This document shows, piece by piece, positions 20,249-30,564 of a stretch of DNA of 38,831 nt. This DNA comes from SAR92 clade bacterium. Lineage in GTDB: Bacteria; Pseudomonadota; Gammaproteobacteria; Pseudomonadales; Porticoccaceae. Position 1 is the first letter of the stretch, and each line of letters opens with the position of its first letter. A program made the translations under genes and the position numbers. The stretch spans positions 1-38,831 of the forward strand of contig JACNKP010000057.1 of assembly GCA_014381985.1 (NCBI GenBank), read 5' to 3'. Below the pieces are notes generated by a model. It was not told where the DNA came from. It saw nothing but the letters and a program-made list of their open reading frames with translations, and did no database searches.

Positions 20249-22762
20249 ATGAAGAAAAGTGCACAGGTGGTAGTTGTTGGTGGGGGTGTTGTGGGCGTTA
20301 GCACGCTCTATCATTTGGCCAAAAAAGGTTGGACCGATGTGGTACTGGTGGAACGCAAAGAGTTGACCTCGGGTTCGACCTGGCATGCTGCAGGTCTACT
20401 GCCGTTGTTTAATATGAGTTACTCAGTGGGTAAGTTGCATCAATATTCGGTGAAGTTCTATCACGAATTACAAGAAGAAACTGGCCAAAATGTCGGGTTT
20501 AGTGTGGTATCCAATATACGTTTAGCCTCCACTGAAGATCGTATGGATGAGTACAAGTATTATTCTGGTGTGGCCCAAACAGTGGGTGTCGAGGTCAATT
20601 TCTTAACGCCAGAAGAAGTCAAGGAAGTTTGGCCGCTGTGTAATACAGAGGGTGTTATAGGCGCCATTCAGCACCCCGATGATGGCTATATTCAGCCGGC
20701 GGATCTTACTCAGGCCTTAGCTAAGGGCGCCCGCGCTCGTGGTGCAGAGATCTATCGCAATACAACTGTTTTAGATCTTGAGCAGCAATCAGATGATAGC
20801 TGGATAGTAAACACTGATAAGGGCGACATCCACTGTCAGCATATTGTTTCCTGCACTGGTAATTTTGCTCGTAAGACTGGCGAGATGGTGGGCCTTGATA
20901 TTCCAGTCATTCCAGTAGAGCATCAATACATTGTTACTGACCCTCACCCCGATATTCTTGCCCGAAAAGCTGCAGGTTTACCAGAGCAGCCAGTGTTGCG
21001 TGAATCTGATGCTGGTTATTATCTTAGAGAAGAGGCTGGTGGCTTTATCTTAGGGCCTTACGAAGAGGGAGCGCCCTGCTGTTATGTCGATGGTCCGAGT
21101 GATCAGTCTGAGTATGAGTTATTTAACGGCGACCTTGATCGGCTAATGCCTCATATTGAAGCGTGCATGAGTCGAGTTCCGGCGTTTGCTGAAGTCGGCG
21201 TCAAAACCGTTTACAACGGCGCTATTGCCTACACGCCAGATGGCAATCCTATCGTTGGTCCGGCGTGGGGATTAAAGAACTTCTGGCTTAATGAGGGGCA
21301 TAGTTTCGGTATCACCGCTGCTGGTGGCGCGGGCTGGCAATTAGCTGAATGGATTGTGGACGGCGAACCTACAGTCGACATGATGGGTGTTGATCCTAGG
21401 CGTTTTGGACCTTATGCCACTCGTGGCTATCTGCGCTCTAAAAACGAGGAAGCCTATGATCACGTGTTTAAGACCCATTATCCCGACGAAGAGCGGGGTG
21501 CAGCACGGCCATTGAAGACATCTCCCTGTTACGATCGGATGAAAAACTTGGGCGCAGTGTTCGGCTCAGTGTATGGGTGGGAGCGACCTAATTGGTTTGC
21601 ACCTCTAGATTACTCGCTGTCCGACCAAGATTTGAATAAAGGCGACACCCTGTGGAATAAAAACCATTCCAAAGCTTTGGATGATGGCCGTATTGTGGAG
21701 AAGAATTCGTTCCGTCGCTCTAATTACTTTGATTTTGTAGGTAACGAGTGTCGCCATGTCAGTGAGAAAGTCGGCGTGCTCGATATGTCCGCTTTCGCTA
21801 AAGCAACGGTATCTGGGCATGGTTCTGAAGCGTGGCTGAATAGCATTGTCGCCAACAATGTTCCCAAAGGAATTGGCCGTATTGGACTCTGCCATATGCT
21901 GTCTTTAAATGGTGGTGTGCGCGCAGAATTTACTATCTATAAGCGCGCAAAAAATAGCTATTATCTCGTTTTTGCAGGCTCTAACGAGCGTCACGATTGG
22001 GATTATTTAACTAAACTTGCGCCTAATGACGGCTCAGTCAAATTACAAAAAATCACCACTCAAATGGGTGTGTTGGTGGTTGCTGGGCCAAAATCTCGTG
22101 AAGTGCTACAAAAACTTACCGACACTGATCTGTCCAATGACAATTTTAAGTGGCTGACAGGAAAATCTATTAACATGGGTTATGCCCAAGCTGAGGTGTT
22201 GCGAGTTAACTTTGTTGGTGAGTTGGGTTGGGAATTACACCATCCCATTGAGATGCAAAACTATATCTTTGATCAGTTAATGATAGCCGGTGCTGAGTTT
22301 GAGATAAAACCTTTTGGTATTCGAGCCATGGACTCTATGCGTCTGGAAAAATCATACCGGCTGATTCCCCGCGAAATGTCGATCGAATATTCAGCGTTTG
22401 AATCCGGGCTAGATCGGTTTGTTAAATTAGACAAAGACGGCGACTTTGTTGGCAAACAAGGCCTGCTGGATTGGCAACGCCGTGGATTTGAAAACTGTTT
22501 TGCAACGCTTGAAATTCACGATGTTGTGGATGCCGACGCCCGAGGCTCTGAGGGGCTTTATAAAGATGGGCAATTAGTGGGTCGAGCGACATCGGGTGGT
22601 TTTGGATTTCGGGTCAACAAGTCTTTAGCTCTGGGCTTAGTTAAGACAGCGTACGGAGCCATTGGCACCGAGTTAGAGATTGAAATTTTAGGTGAACGTT
22701 TTCGCGCCACGGTAATTGAAGAATCGCCGTTTGATGGCGACAACGCTGTGCTTAGGGGTTAG
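20249..22762 (+). CDS. Dimethylglycine dehydrogenase-like FAD/GcvT-domain oxidoreductase
   Basis: This 837-residue cytoplasmic flavoprotein probably oxidises dimethylglycine to sarcosine and passes the carbon to THF as 5,10-methylene-THF. The N-terminal DAO/FAD domain has GGGVVG at residues 11-16 and TSGSTWHAAG, whose H46 matches the histidine that holds FAD covalently in the DMGDH family. A linker domain (about 370-430) is followed by a GcvT-like folate domain (about 440-720, GVLDMSAFAKATVSG...) and the GcvT C-terminal barrel. Sarcosine dehydrogenase and related enzymes share this layout. I prefer dimethylglycine because sarcosine is covered by soxBDAG and the next gene is the MttB-like methyltransferase that would make dimethylglycine. 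It is divergent from fhs. Confidence 0.85.
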   Translation: MKKSAQVVVVGGGVVGVSTLYHLAKKGWTDVVLVERKELTSGSTWHAAGLLPLFNMSYSVGKLHQYSVKFYHELQEETGQNVGFSVVSNIRLASTEDRMDEYKYYSGVAQTVGVEVNFLTPEEVKEVWPLCNTEGVIGAIQHPDDGYIQPADLTQALAKGARARGAEIYRNTTVLDLEQQSDDSWIVNTDKGDIHCQHIVSCTGNFARKTGEMVGLDIPVIPVEHQYIVTDPHPDILARKAAGLPEQPVLRESDAGYYLREEAGGFILGPYEEGAPCCYVDGPSDQSEYELFNGDLDRLMPHIEACMSRVPAFAEVGVKTVYNGAIAYTPDGNPIVGPAWGLKNFWLNEGHSFGITAAGGAGWQLAEWIVDGEPTVDMMGVDPRRFGPYATRGYLRSKNEEAYDHVFKTHYPDEERGAARPLKTSPCYDRMKNLGAVFGSVYGWERPNWFAPLDYSLSDQDLNKGDTLWNKNHSKALDDGRIVEKNSFRRSNYFDFVGNECRHVSEKVGVLDMSAFAKATVSGHGSEAWLNSIVANNVPKGIGRIGLCHMLSLNGGVRAEFTIYKRAKNSYYLVFAGSNERHDWDYLTKLAPNDGSVKLQKITTQMGVLVVAGPKSREVLQKLTDTDLSNDNFKWLTGKSINMGYAQAEVLRVNFVGELGWELHHPIEMQNYIFDQLMIAGAEFEIKPFGIRAMDSMRLEKSYRLIPREMSIEYSAFESGLDRFVKLDKDGDFVGKQGLLDWQRRGFENCFATLEIHDVVDADARGSEGLYKDGQLVGRATSGGFGFRVNKSLALGLVKTAYGAIGTELEIEILGERFRATVIEESPFDGDNAVLRG

Positions 22763-22779: not shown

Positions 22780-22900
22780 GACGCCATTTAATAGCGTCGC
22801 AGACGGGTACTCCCGTGTCGTATCGCCATATGCGGTCTGACCTAAACAGGAACAGACTGCTGGCGATAATAGATCCATTATATGAGAGCAATATACTCTC
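22780..22900 (+). promoter_or_regulatory. Structured leader with four tandem hairpins before the mttB-like gene
   Basis: The 154-base gap between the DMGDH and mttB-like genes holds four stems in a row. They are GACGC/GCGTC (22780-22784/22794-22798); ACGGG/CCCGT (22803-22807/22812-22816); a long bipartite stem with TATCGCCA/TGGCGATA (22821-22828/22861-22868) enclosing GCGGTCTG/CAGACTGC (22832-22839/22853-22860, one G-U pair); and GAGAG/CTCTC (22884-22888/22896-22900), just before the ribosome site. The 16-pair long stem is the strongest RNA structure seen in the window. No B12 box (GCCACTG) was found, so it is not an evident cobalamin riboswitch. It may be a regulatory RNA or an mRNA processing site. 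Confidence 0.5.
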
Positions 22901-22916
22901 CAACGGAAGCATTATT

Positions 22917-24470
22917 ATGACTGAACCAACAGGGCGTAGAAGAGCAGGTAGAGAGGGTGGTGGCCGTGAAGGGCGCCGCGAAGCCCGTGCCAATGCAGTG
23001 GTTGCAACCACTCCGTTTATTGAGCGCAAAATCCCGTATTTTGAATATCTGACTGAAGAGAATTTACAGCTGATAGAAGATAACGCTGATATCCTCTTGG
23101 AAGAGATCGGTATTGATTTTCTGGATGACCCAGAAGCTCTGGAAATGTGGAAAGAAGCCGGAGCCGATGTTCGGGGGAATCGGGTGCATTTCCCCAAAGG
23201 CCTTTGTCGTTCTCTGATTCAAGCGACGGCCCCACGAGAATATGTACAACACGCTAGAAACCCCGAGCGCAACGTTATTATCGGTGGCAAGCGCACAGTG
23301 CTAGTGCCCGCGTATGGCTCACCTTTTGTTCATGATATTGACAAAGGCCGGCGCTATGCGACCATTAAGGACTTTGAAAACTTTGTCAAACTGGCCTACA
23401 TGGCACCAGATATACACCACTCAGGTGGCACTATCTGTGAACCTGTGGATTTGCCGGTGAATAAACGTCATTTTGACATGATATACACCCATTTTAAGCT
23501 CAGCGATAAACCATTAATGGGTTCAGTAACCCATCATGAGCGTGCCCAAGATACGGTGGACATGGCTAAGTTAGTATTTGGTGAAGAATTTGTTGATCAA
23601 AATTGTGTATTGACCAGTCTTATTAACGTCAATTCGCCAATGACCTATGACGCTACCATGCTTGGTTCATTAAAGGTTTATGCGCGTAATAATCAGGCGA
23701 CAGTGGTATCACCCTTTATTCTTGCGGGAGCCATGTCACCAGTGACTACGGCAGGTACAGTTACCCAGATTTTAGCCGAAGCATTAGCGGGTATTGCTTT
23801 TACGCAGCTTTGTCGGCCTGGGGCACCCGTTGTTTTTGGGACATTTGCTGCCGCGGTATCCATGGCGACAGGTGCACCTACCTTTGGTACACCAGAGCCC
23901 AGCCAAGTTATTTATGCTGCGGCATCATTAGCTCGGCGTCTTGGGGTTCCATTCCGCAGTGGTGGGGGCCTTTGTGGCTCTAAATTACCTGATGCTCAGG
24001 CGGCTTATGAGGCGGCTAATACTCTGCAAACGTCTGCTCTAGCCGGAGTTAACTTTATGTTACATACCGCGGGTTGGTTAGAAGGCGGCTTGGCGATGGG
24101 TTATGAGAAATTCGTTATGGATTGTGATCAGGCCAGCATGATATCTGTCCTCCTTGGAGGTATGGATATGTCTGAAAATGGTCAGGCCCTTGACGCGGTG
24201 AGAGAGGTGGGTCCGGGCAAGCATTACCTAGGCTCTGCTCATACCCTGAAAAACTTCGAAACTGCCTTCTATTGCTCAACGGTGGCTGATAACAACAGCT
24301 ATGAGCAATGGACCTTAGATGGCGCTTTGGATACGGCCCAACGCGCCAATATCCTATGGAAGAAAATGCTTAATGAATATCAGGCGCCGGCGATAGATCC
24401 AGCGATTGATGAAGCACTGTTGGACTTTATGGCGCGGCGCAAAGGCTCGTTTGCCGATCGTGATTATTAA
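22917..24470 (+). CDS. MttB-superfamily corrinoid methyltransferase, non-pyrrolysine (probable glycine betaine methyltransferase, MtgB-like)
   Basis: This cytoplasmic protein of 517 residues should move a methyl group from a quaternary amine to the Co(I) corrinoid of the next gene's product. The MttB fold is clear: GTICEPVDLPVNKRHF, NVNSPMTYDATMLGSLKVYA, PFILAGAMSPVTTAGT, GTPEPSQVIYAAASLARRLGVPFRSGGGLCGSKLPDAQA and the C-terminal region. The frame contains no internal TAG, so it lacks pyrrolysine, like the glycine betaine enzyme MtgB and its relatives. Adjacent DMGDH and sarcosine oxidase genes point to glycine betaine; other betaines are possible. The ATG at 22917 is preferred because GGAAG precedes it; an upstream in-frame GTG at 22815 lies in the hairpin leader. 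The first 25 residues are Arg- and Gly-rich (GRRRAGREGGGREGRR). Confidence 0.88.
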   Translation: MTEPTGRRRAGREGGGREGRREARANAVVATTPFIERKIPYFEYLTEENLQLIEDNADILLEEIGIDFLDDPEALEMWKEAGADVRGNRVHFPKGLCRSLIQATAPREYVQHARNPERNVIIGGKRTVLVPAYGSPFVHDIDKGRRYATIKDFENFVKLAYMAPDIHHSGGTICEPVDLPVNKRHFDMIYTHFKLSDKPLMGSVTHHERAQDTVDMAKLVFGEEFVDQNCVLTSLINVNSPMTYDATMLGSLKVYARNNQATVVSPFILAGAMSPVTTAGTVTQILAEALAGIAFTQLCRPGAPVVFGTFAAAVSMATGAPTFGTPEPSQVIYAAASLARRLGVPFRSGGGLCGSKLPDAQAAYEAANTLQTSALAGVNFMLHTAGWLEGGLAMGYEKFVMDCDQASMISVLLGGMDMSENGQALDAVREVGPGKHYLGSAHTLKNFETAFYCSTVADNNSYEQWTLDGALDTAQRANILWKKMLNEYQAPAIDPAIDEALLDFMARRKGSFADRDY

Positions 24471-24496
24471 AAAAACCTATTTGAGGGTTACAGCAC

Positions 24497-25195
24497 ATGT
24501 CTGATGAAGACGATATCGTATTAGCAGAACTATCCGACAAAGATTTGGTTTTACAGATGCATGATGATCTGTATGACGGACTAAAAGAAGAAATTATAGA
24601 GGGAACTGAAATCCTTCTGGCTCGGGGCTGGTCTGCTGAAAAGGTCTTGGGAGAGGCCTTGGTTGATGGCATGACTATTGTTGGTATTGATTTCCGTGAT
24701 GGTATTTTGTTCGTCCCGGAAGTTTTGCTGTCTGCCAACGCGATGAAAGGCGGGATGTCGATTTTAAAGCCATTGTTGGCTGAGACAGGCGCCAAGCCCG
24801 TGGGCACAATGGTTATCGGTACGGTTAAGGGTGATATTCATGATATCGGTAAGAACTTAGTAGCGATGATGATGGAGGGGGCTGGTTTTGATGTTTACGA
24901 TATAGGCATCAACAACTCTGTCGAAGATTATCTTGCGGCGCTGGAACGGCACAAACCGGATATTCTGGGGATGTCGGCACTTTTAACCACGACCATGCCT
25001 TACATGAAAGTGGTTGTCGATGCGCTGAAAGACCAGAATATGCGTGACAAGTACATCGTTATGGTCGGCGGTGCGCCACTTAATGAAGAGTTTGGTCTCG
25101 CGGTGGGCGCCGATGCTTACTGTCGCGATGCGGCGGATGCGTCGACCACAGCAATTCGGTTGGTGTCTGAGCGTCGAGCATTAGAGACGGCTTAA
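24497..25195 (+). CDS. Corrinoid (B12-binding) methyl-carrier protein, MtgC/MtbC-like
   Basis: This cytoplasmic protein of 232 residues carries methyl on cobalamin between the MttB-like enzyme and the methyl-THF transferase. A helical cap domain (about 10-95) is followed by a Rossmann-like B12 domain with GDIHDIG (D113-x-H115-D116-x-G118, H115 being the expected lower cobalt ligand), S160-x-L162 and the GG motif at 191-192. The N-terminus is unusually acidic: 14 Asp/Glu and only 2 Lys in the first 40 residues. It begins 26 bases after the mttB-like stop, with GAGGG nearby, and overlaps the DUF1638 gene by one base (TAATG). The family call is secure; the donor substrate is inferred from the neighbours. 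Confidence 0.93.
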   Translation: MSDEDDIVLAELSDKDLVLQMHDDLYDGLKEEIIEGTEILLARGWSAEKVLGEALVDGMTIVGIDFRDGILFVPEVLLSANAMKGGMSILKPLLAETGAKPVGTMVIGTVKGDIHDIGKNLVAMMMEGAGFDVYDIGINNSVEDYLAALERHKPDILGMSALLTTTMPYMKVVVDALKDQNMRDKYIVMVGGAPLNEEFGLAVGADAYCRDAADASTTAIRLVSERRALETA

Positions 25196-25815
25196 TGAAA
25201 AGGGTCAGTGAGCAGTCAAAGGCAAAGCTTCTAGTGATTGCCTGCGGCGCACTGGCTCATGAAATAGTGTGGCTACAGAGACTGAACAATTGGAATCAAA
25301 TTGAGTTGCAATGTTTGGACGCAGAGTTACACAATCGACCAAAATTGATCCCTCAGAAGCTACGCGACAAGATTCAAGAGAACCTCGGTCAGTACCAAAG
25401 CATTTTTGTTGCCTACGCTGACTGCGGCACCGGCGGTGAGATTGATCGAGTTTTAGAGGAAGAGAATATAGAGCGCCTGCCAGGTGCGCACTGTTATTCG
25501 TTTTATGCCACTGAAGAGCGATTTTCTGAATTGGCCGAACAGGAATTGGGAACCTTTTATCTGACGGACTTTTTGGTTGAGCATTTTGACCGCATTATGA
25601 TTAAAGGGCTAAAGCTCGACAGGCACCCAGAGTTGCGTGATCAATACTTTGCTAATTACACCCGTGTGATTTACCTGTCCCAGCGCCAAGATGCCGAGTT
25701 AGTGAACAAGGCAAAAGTAGCGGCTGAGTTTTTAGGCCTTGGGTTTCGTCATTTGCATACGGGTTATGGTGATTTAGACAGCAGCCTGCAACAGCAGATT
25801 TTAAAATTTAGTTGA
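25195..25815 (+). CDS. DUF1638 family protein
   Basis: This is a protein of 206 residues without signal peptide or membrane segment, so likely cytoplasmic. Family-like blocks are VIACGALAHEI (C17), FVAYADCGTGGEIDRVLEE (C77), AHCYSFYA (H99, C100), TDFLVEHFDR (H130) and DQYFANYTRVIYLSQ, ending with HLHTGYGDLD. The conserved-looking cysteines and histidines could hold a metal or touch the corrinoid. No function has been established for this family to my knowledge. It is coupled to the corrinoid gene by TAATG and followed closely by the Virulence_fact gene, so it is part of the methyl-transfer operon. A role in corrinoid loading, reactivation or zinc supply is a guess. Confidence 0.8.
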   Translation: MKRVSEQSKAKLLVIACGALAHEIVWLQRLNNWNQIELQCLDAELHNRPKLIPQKLRDKIQENLGQYQSIFVAYADCGTGGEIDRVLEEENIERLPGAHCYSFYATEERFSELAEQELGTFYLTDFLVEHFDRIMIKGLKLDRHPELRDQYFANYTRVIYLSQRQDAELVNKAKVAAEFLGLGFRHLHTGYGDLDSSLQQQILKFS

Positions 25816-25841
25816 TAGCCGCTTACATAGAGAGTGAAGGT

Positions 25842-26150
25842 ATGCAGAAAATTGAAGTATTTTGGCGTGATATCCCAGCTCAGATATTAGTTAAAAGTGG
25901 TCGTGTGCGGGGCAAATCAATGCTTAGTCATCGATTTCAGGCCGCTATTGACCGTGCGGCAATGAAAGCAGGAAAGGGTGGCAGCGCAGAGTATTTGGAT
26001 GACTGGCGTCGAGTGACCAGCGCACTTGAGGCGCAGGGGAGTCCTCAGGAATTGGCACAGCAGTTTGCCGATGTCATTGAGGCAAAATACTCTAATGCTG
26101 ATATAGCCGCTTTAGTGGCTAACAAAGGCCTTAAGGTCGAGTCTGCATGA
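25842..26150 (+). CDS. Virulence_fact-domain small protein
   Basis: This is a small cytoplasmic protein of 102 residues (MQKIEVFWRDIPAQILVKSG...), resembling the domain named after a conserved virulence factor of Staphylococcus; that label says nothing of function here. The body is a short beta-rich start, the basic segment GRVRGKSMLSHRFQAAIDRAAMKAGK, and a helical end. The ATG at 25842 is chosen over a TTG at 25812 because it follows AGAGTGAAGG and is the natural start of the domain. Its stop overlaps the MetV-like gene (ATGA at 26147-26150). Its place between the corrinoid and folate genes suggests a helper role in the methyl-transfer module; this is inference. Confidence 0.72.
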   Translation: MQKIEVFWRDIPAQILVKSGRVRGKSMLSHRFQAAIDRAAMKAGKGGSAEYLDDWRRVTSALEAQGSPQELAQQFADVIEAKYSNADIAALVANKGLKVESA

Positions 26151-26608
26151 AGCGGGTTCGCTATTGGTCGGTTAAAAATGCCCGTGGGTTGCACTGGGCC
26201 TATCAGGGCCTGGAGGCCTGCCTTGCAGTTTTGCATCCCATTTTTATGCGGCTGGGTTATCGTCGTTTGGACCGAGGGTTTGCCGCGGTAGAAAAGTTAC
26301 TTAAGGGCTTTCTGTTTGATTCTCAATCATGCGGACAATGCACGCTAAGTGAAACCGGGATGGCCTGTCCCATGAATTGTCCCAAAAGTTTACGTAACGG
26401 CCCTTGCGGGGGTGTGCGAGCTAATGGTAATTGCGAAATTGAACCAGATATGGTTTGTGTTTGGGTTACTTCTTGGCAAGGTAGTCAGCGAATCGGCAGT
26501 CCGGTGTCGGCTATCCAGGTGATTCAGACTCCCGTCGATGTTCGTTTAAAAGGCTCTAGCGCTTGGTTACGTGCGGTAAGAAAAAGGATGGGGGCCAGTG
26601 AAATATGA
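26147..26608 (+). CDS. MetV-like / MTHFR C-terminal zinc or Fe-S domain protein
   Basis: This protein of 153 residues has a cysteine-rich core: C62, C65 (SCGQC), C74, C78 (ACPMNCPK), C87 (NGPCGG), C96 and C104. This is the signature of the domain found with methylenetetrahydrofolate reductases of acetogens, where MetV partners MetF. It probably binds a metal or Fe-S cluster and passes electrons to or from MetF. The N-terminal 55 residues are basic and helical. It overlaps its upstream neighbour and metF by ATGA at both ends, so a MetV-MetF complex made in fixed ratio is likely. The electron acceptor cannot be told. Classical E. coli MetF has no such partner, which makes this an anaerobe-like reductase in a respiring organism. 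Confidence 0.82.
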   Translation: MKRVRYWSVKNARGLHWAYQGLEACLAVLHPIFMRLGYRRLDRGFAAVEKLLKGFLFDSQSCGQCTLSETGMACPMNCPKSLRNGPCGGVRANGNCEIEPDMVCVWVTSWQGSQRIGSPVSAIQVIQTPVDVRLKGSSAWLRAVRKRMGASEI

Positions 26609-27591
26609 TCTTTGATGATGAGCCCATAGCCGGAGAGAACTTACCCATACTGCCAGGTCATTGTTCCCCTGGTCGATTTGAGAGAGTACTGCGTGCGGGA
26701 CACTTTGCGGTTACGGCTGAAATAGCGCCACCAGATTCTGCCGACCCTCATGATGTATACGAGCGGGCAGCTTTATTTGATGGTTATGTTGATGCTATTA
26801 ACGCGACCGATGGTTCGGGCGCTAATTGCCATATGTCTAGTGTTGGTATGTGTGCCTTACTGACGCGGCTTGGCTACTCGATGATCATGCAAATCTCTTG
26901 TCGTGACCGGAATCGTATCGCCATTCAGGGTGATGTGTTGGGCGCGTCGGCCATGGGTGTGTCCAATATTCTCTGCCTCACCGGTGACGGAGTGCAGTCA
27001 GGCGATCACCCTCAGGCTAAGCCTGTGTTTGATATGGACTGCATGACTAGCTTGCAAATGATTAGCGGTATGCGGGATAAAGGCGAGTTTTTGAGTGGTC
27101 GTAAAATCAGCTCGCGACCTCAGGTGTTTTTAGGCGCTGCCGCAAATCCGTTTGCGCCTCCGCTGGATTATAGGCCGCTGCGATTGGCTAAAAAGGTAGC
27201 TGCCGGCGCCCAGTTTATTCAGACTCAGTATTGTTTTGATATTGACAGATTAAAGACGTACATGTCTGAGATAAGAGATATGGGCTTAGATAAAAAAGTG
27301 TTTATTTTGGCGGGTGTAGGCCCGCTAGCTTCAGCCAAATCGGCCGAGTGGATTCGTAATAATGTGGCTGGTGTGCATATCCCCGATAATATTATTAAAC
27401 GGCTTGCTGGTGCTAATGATCAACGTCAGGAAGGTGTCAACATCTGTATTGATATGGTCAATCAAGTTAAAGAAATAGAGGGAGTGAGTGGCGCGCATAT
27501 TATGGCTTATCGCCAAGAAGAGCGGATCGCTGAGATCGTAGAAAAAACTAAAGTGTTGGGCGATAGAGCGCCCTGGCACCCGAATCGTTAA
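26605..27591 (+). CDS. metF: Methylenetetrahydrofolate reductase (MetF family)
   Basis: This FAD enzyme of 328 residues interconverts 5,10-methylene-THF and 5-methyl-THF. The TIM-barrel motifs are visible: FAVTAEIAPPDSADP, AINATDGSG, ILCLTGDGV, QVFLGAAANPFAPP, GAQFIQTQYCFD and the C-terminal GAHIMAYRQEERIAEIV. In this operon the likely direction is oxidation of methyl-THF delivered from the corrinoid step, the reverse of its usual biosynthetic role. It is coupled to the MetV-like gene by ATGA, and the methyl-THF transferase follows after 15 bases. A second MetF for methionine synthesis is probably encoded elsewhere, but that cannot be seen here. Confidence 0.9.
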   Translation: MIFDDEPIAGENLPILPGHCSPGRFERVLRAGHFAVTAEIAPPDSADPHDVYERAALFDGYVDAINATDGSGANCHMSSVGMCALLTRLGYSMIMQISCRDRNRIAIQGDVLGASAMGVSNILCLTGDGVQSGDHPQAKPVFDMDCMTSLQMISGMRDKGEFLSGRKISSRPQVFLGAAANPFAPPLDYRPLRLAKKVAAGAQFIQTQYCFDIDRLKTYMSEIRDMGLDKKVFILAGVGPLASAKSAEWIRNNVAGVHIPDNIIKRLAGANDQRQEGVNICIDMVNQVKEIEGVSGAHIMAYRQEERIAEIVEKTKVLGDRAPWHPNR

Positions 27592-27606
27592 TTTTAGGAG
27601 AAAAAT

Positions 27607-28500
27607 ATGACTGTAACCACCATCAGTTCAGCCACTAAAGAAGTCAAAATAGGCTTTAACCAACCCTTTGTTATCATTGGAGAGCGCATTAACCCTACAG
27701 GCCGCAAAATTTTGGCCGAAGAGATGAAGGTGGGTGATTATAGTCGTGTTGAATCTGATGCACTGGCGCAGGTTGTGGCAGGTGCCCATATGCTGGATGT
27801 AAATGCGGGTATTCCCTTGGCTGATGAGCCGCGTATCCTGGCCGAGGCTATTCAATTGGTGCAATCAATAACCGATGTACCGTTAAGTATCGATTCTTCT
27901 ATTATTGCTGCATTGGAGGCAGGGCTGTCAGTTTATCAAGGCAAGGCGCTGGTTAATTCCGTTACCGGTGAAGATGAAGTATTAGAAAGAGTGCTTCCTT
28001 TGGTAAAGAAATATGGTGCTGCTGTTGTCGCAATCTCCAATGATGAAACTGGTATTTCTGAAGACCCCAACGAACGTTTCGCAGTTGCTAAGAAAATTGT
28101 TGAGCGTGCGGCTGATTACGGTATTCATTACAGTGATGTTATTGTTGACCCTTTGGTTATGCCGATTGGCGCAATCAACACTGCTGGTTTGCAGGTGATG
28201 CATGTGGTGCGACGTTTACGCGAAGAATTGAAAGTTAACACTACCTGCGGAGCTTCCAACGTGAGCTTTGGGTTACCTAATCGAAATGGTATCAATAGTG
28301 CATTTTTGACTATGGCAATGGGAGCCGGTATGACATCAGCAATCACAAGCCCACTGCATCCAGAAGTGATGCAAGCTGTGAGGGGTGGCGATGTGATGAT
28401 GGGTAATGATCCTAACTGTACCAATTGGATTAAGGCTTACCGCGAGCCTCAGGCCGCAGGAACTGAACGCGTGCGCGGTGGTCGCCGACGGAGAGCATAA
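27607..28500 (+). CDS. Methyltetrahydrofolate:corrinoid methyltransferase (MtgA/AcsE-like)
   Basis: This is a pterin-binding TIM-barrel enzyme of 297 residues that takes the methyl from the corrinoid protein and loads it on THF. Typical blocks are IIGERINPTGRK, MLDVNAGIP (D64, N66), LSIDSS (D96), ALVNSVTGE (N117) and TTCGASNVSFGLPNR. It is the free-standing enzyme of anaerobic C1 metabolism rather than a domain of MetH. AGGAG lies just before the ATG. The C-terminus ends in RVRGGRRRRA, an Arg-rich tail beyond the barrel. It follows metF by 15 bases. Together with the MttB-like and corrinoid proteins it makes a complete three-part methyl transfer system. Confidence 0.9.
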   Translation: MTVTTISSATKEVKIGFNQPFVIIGERINPTGRKILAEEMKVGDYSRVESDALAQVVAGAHMLDVNAGIPLADEPRILAEAIQLVQSITDVPLSIDSSIIAALEAGLSVYQGKALVNSVTGEDEVLERVLPLVKKYGAAVVAISNDETGISEDPNERFAVAKKIVERAADYGIHYSDVIVDPLVMPIGAINTAGLQVMHVVRRLREELKVNTTCGASNVSFGLPNRNGINSAFLTMAMGAGMTSAITSPLHPEVMQAVRGGDVMMGNDPNCTNWIKAYREPQAAGTERVRGGRRRRA

Positions 28501-28551
28501 ATACTCTATAGTGTTTAAATGAAATGTAGTAATTGTAGGTAGACTGATCTA

Positions 28552-30564
28552 ATGGCAGATAAGCAAGTCAAAGTTGTGTTCACTCCTTCTGGCCGGCGTG
28601 GTAGCTTTCCGGTTAATACCCCGTTGCTTCATGCGGCAAGGGTCTTGGGGGTGGATATCGACTCGGTTTGTGGTGGTCGAGGCCTTTGCGGTCGTTGCCA
28701 AATCACCTGTGCTGAAGGTGCCTTTCCCAAGCATCAAATTAACTCCGATAGCAGCCATCTCTCTGCTGTCTGTGCCACAGAAATTAAATATGGTGAGCGT
28801 AAAACACCACTAGCCCTGGGGCGACGTTTGAGTTGCCATACCTTGCTGCTAGATGACGTCGTCATTGACGTGCCGCCTGAAAGTCAGGTGCACCGACAAA
28901 TTGTGCGCAAAGATGCAGAGCACCGCGATATTATCCTCGACCCTTCAACCAGGCTTTACTATATTCAAGTAGAAGAGCCCGATATGCATGTACCTAAAGG
29001 AGATTTACAGCGACTAATAGAGGCTTTAGAGCAAGAATGGCAACTCTCGGGTCTCAATTGTGACAACCGTCTACTGAAATCTTTACAACCAGTATTAGCG
29101 GCGGGTAAGAGATCAATCACCGTTGCTGTGCACAAAAACCAACAGATTATTGCTCTCTGGCCTGGGTTTCACGAGAAGGCTTACGGTGTGGCGGTGGATG
29201 TTGGCTCGACTACTATAGCTGCTCATCTGTGTGATCTAGCAAGTGGTGAAGTGCTGGCGAGTGCCAGCACTATGAATCCGCAAATACGCTTTGGCGAAGA
29301 TCTAATGAGCCGTGTTTCCTATGTGATGATGCACCCTGAAGGCGCCGATGAGATGACTGTTGTCATCCGGCAGGCCCTCAACCGACTATTTCTCGAGGCG
29401 GTCGAAGAGATAGGTGCCGAAATCGAGGATATTTTGGAAGTCTCCTTAGTCGCTAACCCGATCATGCATCATATTTTGCTCGGGATTAGTCCTGTGGAGT
29501 TGGGGGGAGCGCCTTTTGCCTTGACCACAGACGCTGCTGTGGAAATGCCCACCGCCGAGTTAGATTTAAAGATTAATGGTGGTGGCCGTATCTATATATT
29601 GCCTTGTATTGCGGGACATGTGGGCGCTGATACGGCCGGTATGATCCTGTCTGAAGAACCTCAACTGCAAGATAAGATGACACTATTGGTGGATGTGGGT
29701 ACCAATGCTGAAATAGTGTTGGGCAATAGTCAGCGCTTATTGGCGTGCTCCAGTCCCACTGGGCCCGCTTTTGAGGGAGCCCAAATTAGTTGTGGCCAAC
29801 GCGCGGCCACAGGTGCCATCGAGCGAGTGAGGATTAATTCTGAAACTCTGGAGCCGCGTTTTAAGGTTATTGGTTCAGAGCTTTGGTCTGATGAAGAAGG
29901 TTTTACTGATGCTATTGCAAACCACGGTGTCACAGGTATCTGCGGTTCTGGAATTATTGAAGTAGTCGCTGAGATGTACTTGGCAGGGATAGTTACGGTG
30001 GATGGGATTGTCGATGGCGATTTTATTGGTAGAACCTCGAGAATTATAAAAAATGACCGTACTTGGTCATATGTACTACATACCCCAGACTCCGATGAAA
30101 CTCAGATTGTGGTGACACAAAATGATATTCGTCAAATTCAGTTGGCCAAGGCAGCACTTTATGCCGGGGTAAAATTACTCATGGACCATATAGGCACTGA
30201 CCATATTGAGCGCATTCGTTTGGCCGGCGCCTTTGGTAGTCATATCAACGTGCAACACGCGATGGTTCTAGGTTTGATCCCTGATTGTGTCTTAGAGCAG
30301 GTATCCTCTGCGGGCAATGCGGCCGGTACGGGTGCTCGTATCGCTCTTCTAAATGCTGAGTCTCGTAATGTGATTGAGACCCTGGTCAAAAATATCGAGA
30401 AAATAGAGACGGCTTTGGAGCCTAAATTTCAGGATTATTTTGTTGATGCCATGGCATTTCCCAATAAAAAAGATCCGTTCCCCAACCTCTTTTCGGTGGT
30501 TGATAAACCCCAGGAAAAAGTCGGGCAAGATTCGGCTGGTGGAAGAAAACGCCGACGGCGATAA
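28552..30564 (+). CDS. ASKHA-domain [2Fe-2S] corrinoid reactivation protein (RamA/RACE-like)
   Basis: This protein of 670 residues should reactivate Co(II) corrinoid that has lost its electron. The N-terminal plant-type ferredoxin domain has C40, C46, C49 (CGGRGLCGRC) and C95 (RRLSCHT). A linker of about 100 residues leads to the ASKHA ATPase domain, with AVDVGSTTIAAHL near residue 215, LLVDVGTNAEIVLG and the glycine-rich GICGSGIIE. Such proteins use ATP binding to make the electron transfer to Co(II) possible. It starts 51 bases after the methyl-THF transferase stop and ends in GGRKRRRR, another Arg-rich tail. The electron donor for the ferredoxin domain is not in the window. Confidence 0.92.
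   Translation: MADKQVKVVFTPSGRRGSFPVNTPLLHAARVLGVDIDSVCGGRGLCGRCQITCAEGAFPKHQINSDSSHLSAVCATEIKYGERKTPLALGRRLSCHTLLLDDVVIDVPPESQVHRQIVRKDAEHRDIILDPSTRLYYIQVEEPDMHVPKGDLQRLIEALEQEWQLSGLNCDNRLLKSLQPVLAAGKRSITVAVHKNQQIIALWPGFHEKAYGVAVDVGSTTIAAHLCDLASGEVLASASTMNPQIRFGEDLMSRVSYVMMHPEGADEMTVVIRQALNRLFLEAVEEIGAEIEDILEVSLVANPIMHHILLGISPVELGGAPFALTTDAAVEMPTAELDLKINGGGRIYILPCIAGHVGADTAGMILSEEPQLQDKMTLLVDVGTNAEIVLGNSQRLLACSSPTGPAFEGAQISCGQRAATGAIERVRINSETLEPRFKVIGSELWSDEEGFTDAIANHGVTGICGSGIIEVVAEMYLAGIVTVDGIVDGDFIGRTSRIIKNDRTWSYVLHTPDSDETQIVVTQNDIRQIQLAKAALYAGVKLLMDHIGTDHIERIRLAGAFGSHINVQHAMVLGLIPDCVLEQVSSAGNAAGTGARIALLNAESRNVIETLVKNIEKIETALEPKFQDYFVDAMAFPNKKDPFPNLFSVVDKPQEKVGQDSAGGRKRRRR

Follow-up and report, generated by a model that had tools for sequence, protein, structure and literature searches.

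The closest described relatives of the system considered here are the MtgBCDE enzymes of Ruegeria pomeroyi (PMC12478193) and the split methionine synthase of Phaeobacter inhibens (PMC5764234) which, according to the available text of both papers, share its modules and have one carrier for several enzymes. The common modules comprise the methyltransferase MtgB (PF06253), the carrier MtgC, the pterin-binding MtgD, MtgE (PF02574), a RamA-like activase and DUF1638. In R. pomeroyi, mtgC and mtgD are described as working in the demethylation of glycine betaine as well as in the synthesis of methionine; the organism depends on mtgC for methionine and when growing on glycine betaine, RamA and DUF1638 have been linked to reactivation, and mtgC is reported to be widely expressed in the ocean (PMC12478193). 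The same folds and methyl-transfer logic occur in the anaerobic MtgB/MtgC and the methanogen MttB/MttC and MtaB/MtaC (2QNE, 9YCE, 7XCN, 2I2X), and in MetH one corrinoid domain likewise alternates among homocysteine, folate and reactivation modules. This study describes a gene cluster of this kind on a 38,831-nucleotide stretch of DNA from a SAR92 clade bacterium (contig JACNKP010000057.1; the whole stretch is referred to as the window), with emphasis on the arginine (Arg)-rich tails of its corrinoid-dependent enzymes and the acidic N-terminus of its carrier.

The window lies on contig C4 of a gammaproteobacterial genome of 2.5 Mb (G000 in the set analyzed) and the best named match of its methyl-tetrahydrofolate (methyl-THF) transferase is found in the Porticoccaceae metagenome-assembled genome UBA4026 (97%). 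The cluster is the known aerobic glycine betaine system MtgB/MtgC/MtgD with a RACo/RamA-like activase. Its order is a dimethylglycine dehydrogenase (DMGDH)-like protein, an MttB-superfamily methyltransferase, the corrinoid protein, DUF1638, PF13769, DUF5981, MetF, the methyl-THF:corrinoid methyltransferase, the activase and a GbdR-like regulator; PF06253 thus stands beside a PF02310/PF02607 corrinoid protein, PF00809 and RACo, DUF1638 occurs alongside the RamA-like activase, and MtgE is encoded in the same genome. The models of the anaerobic glycine betaine MtgC are not reached (NF047996, 198 bits against a cut-off of 370; NF047995, 166 against 310), nor is that of the trimethylamine methyltransferase MttB (TIGR02369, 259 against 525). 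The enzyme system is already known; no description of its tails or charge pairing was recognized among the listed papers of the open-licence PubMed Central (PMC) literature. The available text on R. pomeroyi and on P. inhibens does not mention them (in PMC12478193 the words arginine, disordered and complex are absent), and PMC12478193 does not explain how modules on separate proteins can use a single reactive Co(I) carrier in common.

A sequence-only reading of the window had noted basic ends on three partners of the carrier, all of which are present: the MttB-like protein has the Arg/Gly-rich start MTEPTGRRRAGREGGGREGRREARAN, the methyl-THF transferase (MtgD) ends in RVRGGRRRRA and the RACo-like activase in GGRKRRRR. 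The first 40 residues of the carrier contain, as stated there, 14 Asp/Glu and 2 Lys (plus 1 His), and MetF and the DMGDH-like protein are devoid of such tails. The location of the tails outside the catalytic folds holds for MtgD, the protein modelled, in which residues 286–297 are disordered (AlphaFold2, AF2; predicted local distance difference test, pLDDT, below 50). Comparison of homologues suggests that the tails may well be a shared electrostatic docking tag that brings the exchange enzymes to the MtgC hub independently of the end at which it is placed, binding being what we infer from the pattern. Very probably a tail marks the partners of the hub; that the acidic N-terminus of the carrier is the docking site is a tentative and somewhat doubtful proposal, which was lowered after an acidic carrier had been found beside a tail-less MttB.

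The distribution of the tails was examined in a first survey of 96 loci, in which duplicate genomes were kept, and in a wider survey of more Alpha- and Gammaproteobacteria genomes with duplicates removed; a C-terminal tail was defined as five or more Arg among the final 14 residues. Within the 96 loci it occurs in 91/93 MtgD and 78/83 RACo, and in none of the corrinoid (0/72), DUF1638 (0/77), PF13769 (0/69), MetF (0/55), DMGDH-like (0/85) or AraC (0/40) proteins. DUF5981 has it in 1/46 cases, MttB in 2/65 (both with the tail at the swapped terminus, see below) and other neighboring open reading frames (ORFs) in 6/508. The wider survey gave 116/121 for MtgD and 131/135 for RACo, and the nine proteins below 5 Arg still end in a basic stretch. 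At the N-terminus at least 5 Arg are present in 59/60 MttB (33-residue window) versus 14/534 other ORFs (first 25 residues). The N-terminal count separates less cleanly than the C-terminal count because some cluster neighbors also reach this number (PF13769, 10/69; DUF5981, 12/45; DUF1638, 6/73; DMGDH-like, 6/100). These tail frequencies are far above chance. In the other ORFs (508 C-termini, 534 N-termini) no further recurrent tailed family was found beside the hub, apart from scattered single ORFs. A DNA pattern used on the genome of the window for more Arg-tailed C-termini was uninformative, with 43 sites versus 70 for the backward control; of the 28 sites readable in 30 retrieved loci, only MtgD closes a frame of at least 100 residues.

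The letters of the tails vary (110 different last-14 strings in 126 MtgD, 127 in 136 RACo) while the composition stays rich in Arg and Gly, which make up 45 and 25%, respectively, of the last 14 residues of MtgD. An artefact of composition or annotation is very improbable. It could be argued that MttB start codons were assigned by inference, so that N-terminal windows may include untranslated residues (in the window the ATG start lies at 22917 and a longer GTG frame starts at 22815); C-terminal tails, however, need no choice of start. Moreover, the tail Arg codons of the window are mixed (CGT, AGA, CGC, CGA, CGG), which argues against a DNA repeat, and those of homologues are mixed much like the codons of the protein body. 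In low-GC loci Arg is kept in MtgD tails, where R/(R+K) is 0.85 versus 0.42 in the body (n = 5); in the one low-GC RACo locus the values are 0.62 and 0.56. An origin by composition or repeats was judged unlikely on the basis of these codons and of the GC bins.

The homocysteine methyltransferase MtgE also exchanges with this carrier; although unrelated to the other partners, it would be expected to be tailed as well if tails address the hub. This expectation was drawn from the split methionine synthase; the first tailed cases were ORFs upstream of mtgC in several genomes, two of which were checked and are PF02574. Among 30 genomes and the carrier loci, all 26 MtgE-like proteins carry at least 4 Arg in their last 16 residues, and 25 of them at least 5, versus none of 29 other stop-ended PF02574 ORFs. 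MtgE-like proteins score 329–784 bits to one MtgE query and the other PF02574 proteins 21–80 bits; the counts leave out 15 MetH frames running off the loci and two small matches. The genome of the window has an unlinked MtgE-like gene of its own (G000:C49, 311 bits to an MtgE-like query) with a basic tail ending in HKSSGRARRRQK, as well as a 1227-residue MetH-type frame. The small genome G365 has no PF06253 match (E ≤ 1e-20), yet encodes an acidic carrier together with MtgD, RACo and MtgE, all three tailed, which indicates that the tails are not tied to MttB; this hub seems to serve methionine synthesis only.

The MttB superfamily extends the pattern to paralogues as little as 22–28% identical to the MttB of the window. 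Out of 146 distinct complete proteins, 145 are basic at one end (one of these being unclear): 140 have a clean Arg-rich N-terminus, one has a mixed Lys/Arg start (L306), one lacks a clear start (L325) and three (L091, L093, L321) bear the tail at the C-terminus and none at the N-terminus; the remaining one (L320) is tail-less. A close MttB homologue of known structure (4YYC) also has an Arg-rich start. Identity between L091/L093 and L321 is about 26% and this part of the tree is weak, so that an independent origin of the C-terminal tails is possible, not proven; placing these proteins on the tree was abandoned for the same reason. Family f217 has exactly one carrier match (E ≤ 1e-40) in each of 30 genomes and 2–7 PF06253 matches in each of the ten scanned for them. 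A large MttB-like expansion was also observed in one gammaproteobacterial genome, G265, where 19 PF06253 matches, in part fragments, stand against a single hub-type carrier. Of the 93 PF06253 matches in the whole scan, 87 were retrieved, the other six being mostly fragments.

The tails could instead act within their own enzyme (in oligomerization, stability or protection from proteases) and be common by inheritance in one lineage. Although the systems belong largely to one clade and docking is a step that we infer, this is improbable considering that four unrelated families are tailed, that the tailed end varies and that PF02574 relatives and divergent RACo proteins have no tail. Divergent RACo proteins (L035, L201–L209) are tail-less in 10/10 cases; an eleventh row with a tail was excluded as a hub RACo cut off at a contig edge (L259), and the genomes are not independent, several sharing a genus. 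In G265 the tail-less MttB (L320) adjoins a second corrinoid protein (L320/L342, G265:C38), and a second RACo and methyl-THF transferase (L035, G265:C91), followed by a DUF1638 gene, are tail-less as well; the first set of this genome (L023, L259) has all hub features. The tail-less parts of G265, which sit on different contigs, presumably work together. Proteins of solved structure have 17 (2QNE) and 2 (9YCE) residues ahead of the aligned core in MtgB, and 9, 8, and 1 residues past it in RACo 3ZYY and the methyltransferases 4O0Q and 2YCI, respectively.

The carriers bear the opposite charge. The first 40 residues of 118 distinct hub-type carriers contain on average 15.5 acidic (12–19) and 1.0 basic (0–2) residues; the median carrier has its most acidic 20-residue window here, and the mean net charge of the carrier is -22.6. 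On average, MtgC has the strongest acidic window of the proteins compared (-8.6; MttB, -6.7; DMGDH-like, -6.2; MetF, -4.8; DUF1638, -4.7), and carrier acidity is correlated with the Arg content of MtgD tails (rho 0.59, n = 60, without correction for descent). In the AF2 model the carrier has the usual cap and Rossmann fold (best structural matches, MttC in 7XCN, 4JGI and MetH fragments), preceded by residues 1–3 with pLDDT below 50 and a first ten averaging 66; a cap helix follows at 14–26. Just after the acidic tip the carriers keep, by eye, a stretch resembling [DE]-I-[IV]-L-[SA]-[ED]-L (24497–24556 in the window; D-L-D-L variants in some loci) that may represent a separate linear motif.

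In the available text on solved relatives, the main contacts between MttB and MttC involve the cap and core loops, and in MtaB/MtaC an N-terminal extension of the carrier lies in a groove (PMC9842639). By analogy, the acidic end would be situated at a plausible docking face, because it is the cap or the N-terminal extension that makes contact in those complexes. They differ from the present hub in that contact is made via the cap and dimerization loop, or via a folded MtaC extension (PMC9842639).

Two other uses of the charges have to be considered. The R/G-rich, predicted disordered tails and the overall acidic carrier could form a loose, coacervate-like assembly of several partners, that is, a condensate or metabolon in place of one-to-one docking; this is unlikely given how short the tails are and that, apart from them, the charged partners are folded proteins. 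Alternatively, a different polyanion (RNA, DNA, membrane, polyphosphate or folyl-polyglutamate) might be what the tails bind, which would do no more than co-localize the enzymes. Arg-rich tails are in general able to bind polyanions, which favors this idea, and yet it is slightly less likely still, because the carrier is acidic and tail-less and would be repelled, and MetF, which uses folate, has no C-terminal tail; the tailed MttB and RACo families are not known to use folate.

Several observations weigh against the docking tag, and above all against docking at the acidic start. Carriers of the genomes with divergent RACo are on the whole less acidic there and have, from the likeliest start, roughly 5–10 acidic and 1–4 basic of 40 residues in L202–L209, but L201 reaches 11 acidic and 3 basic, and the carrier beside the tail-less MttB of G265 has 12 acidic, as many as the least acidic hub carriers, and 2 basic. 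Partners and carrier of the hub do bear opposite charges, but an acidic carrier start is thus also found next to a tail-less MttB. (Divergent carriers of the wide survey amount to six rows, two being the same protein, L320 and L342; those of L201, L203, L206, L207 and L209 fell outside its filter and were inspected separately.) Carrier acidity shows no such relation to RACo tail Arg (rho -0.15). Among the proteins of the window itself it is MttB that holds the most acidic 20 residues in a row (-9), the carrier N-terminus having -6; an acidic target other than the carrier is therefore disfavored only on average, the windows of DUF1638 and MetF being weaker than that of MtgC. Genetics place DUF1638 in reactivation according to the available text of PMC5764234, though it has no tail. 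Finally, the tailed systems belong essentially to one clade in which no losses were seen, and independent events are consequently few. Together these points tell more heavily against the proposed docking site than against tails as a mark of hub partners.

The sequence-only reading had proposed that tails and acidic terminus form a shared docking code, to be checked by their co-occurrence and common loss in homologues. Co-occurrence is largely borne out across more than 100 homologues, by the fourth partner, by the terminus-swapped paralogues and by the contrast with tail-less systems, but the acidic start is graded. Common loss can be judged only between clades, because no member of the clade has lost one side. 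The docking code itself is thus supported in part, through the comparative pattern.

If the tails are a docking tag, each enzyme that reaches the corrin of the single carrier MtgC would bear a disordered Arg-rich tail at one end: MtgB paralogues would load the methyl group, MtgD would pass it to or from THF, MtgE would give it to homocysteine and RACo would re-reduce Co(II). The tails would bind the acidic carrier, most likely at the acidic, flexible N-terminal end next to the cap helices, raising the local concentration, and quick release would let loader, unloader and repair enzyme alternate; a kinetic benefit would presumably follow. In this manner the tails would stand in, between separate proteins, for the linkers that join the modules of MetH. 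In the docking domains of carrier-protein systems, partners are likewise recruited to a common carrier by short elements at their termini, and opposite charges pair in charge-driven disordered complexes; the hub tails, with other proteins and chemistry, would work alike without being members of these groups. It is possible, if still less than probable, that hub membership is written as charge and not as fold, an Arg-rich disordered tail at either end giving access to the carrier.

The coordinates of the features are collected in Table 1. The region 25812–26608 holds the PF13769 and DUF5981 (MetF C-terminal-like) genes, which lie between carrier and MetF in relatives too.

Table 1. Hub components, tails and tail-less neighbors in the window, and terminus-swapped MttB homologues at other loci.
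Feature	Position	Strand	Basis
DMGDH-like protein, tail-less control	20249..22762	+	PF01266 and PF01571; C-terminal tail 0/85
MttB-superfamily methyltransferase (MtgB-like)	22917..24470	+	PF06253, 752 bits; sole PF06253 match in genome
MttB Arg/Gly-rich N-terminal tail, residues 7–24	22935..22988	+	Read in sequence; conserved in homologues
Corrinoid carrier protein (MtgC-like hub)	24497..25195	+	PF02310 and PF02607; only non-MetH PF02607 match in genome
Carrier acidic N-terminal 40 residues (14 acidic, 2 basic), into first cap helix	24497..24616	+	Sequence, clade statistics, model
DUF1638 protein, without tail	25195..25815	+	PF07796; C-terminal tail in 0/77 homologues
MetF-like reductase, tail-less control	26605..27591	+	PF02219; C-terminal tail 0/55
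Methyl-THF:corrinoid methyltransferase (MtgD-like)	27607..28500	+	PF00809; NCBIfam NF005719, 365 bits (cut-off 259)
MtgD Arg-rich C-terminal tail, predicted disordered, residues 286–297	28462..28497	+	AF2 pLDDT <50 for exactly 286–297; conserved
RACo/RamA-like reductive activase	28552..30564	+	PF14574, PF17651, PF17650, Fer2; only PF14574 match in genome
RACo Arg-rich C-terminal tail, residues 663–670	30538..30561	+	Read in sequence; conserved
Terminus-swapped MttBs	L091 11906-13486; L093 6635-8164; L321 478-2055	-	Arg-rich C-terminus

Whether Bmt, the MtgE counterpart, cooperates with the other parts of the split synthase was called still unknown in 2025 in the available text of PMC12366255, and a common tag would make this question directly testable. 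It would also provide a rule, read from sequence, by which the many orphan MttB paralogues could be assigned to the hub, and a way to seek new partners. If the docking tag is real, families could plug into the hub or multiply without a new interface, and the tag would predict further partners; the hub would then exemplify an electrostatic address in bacterial metabolism that can be swapped and works regardless of its position.

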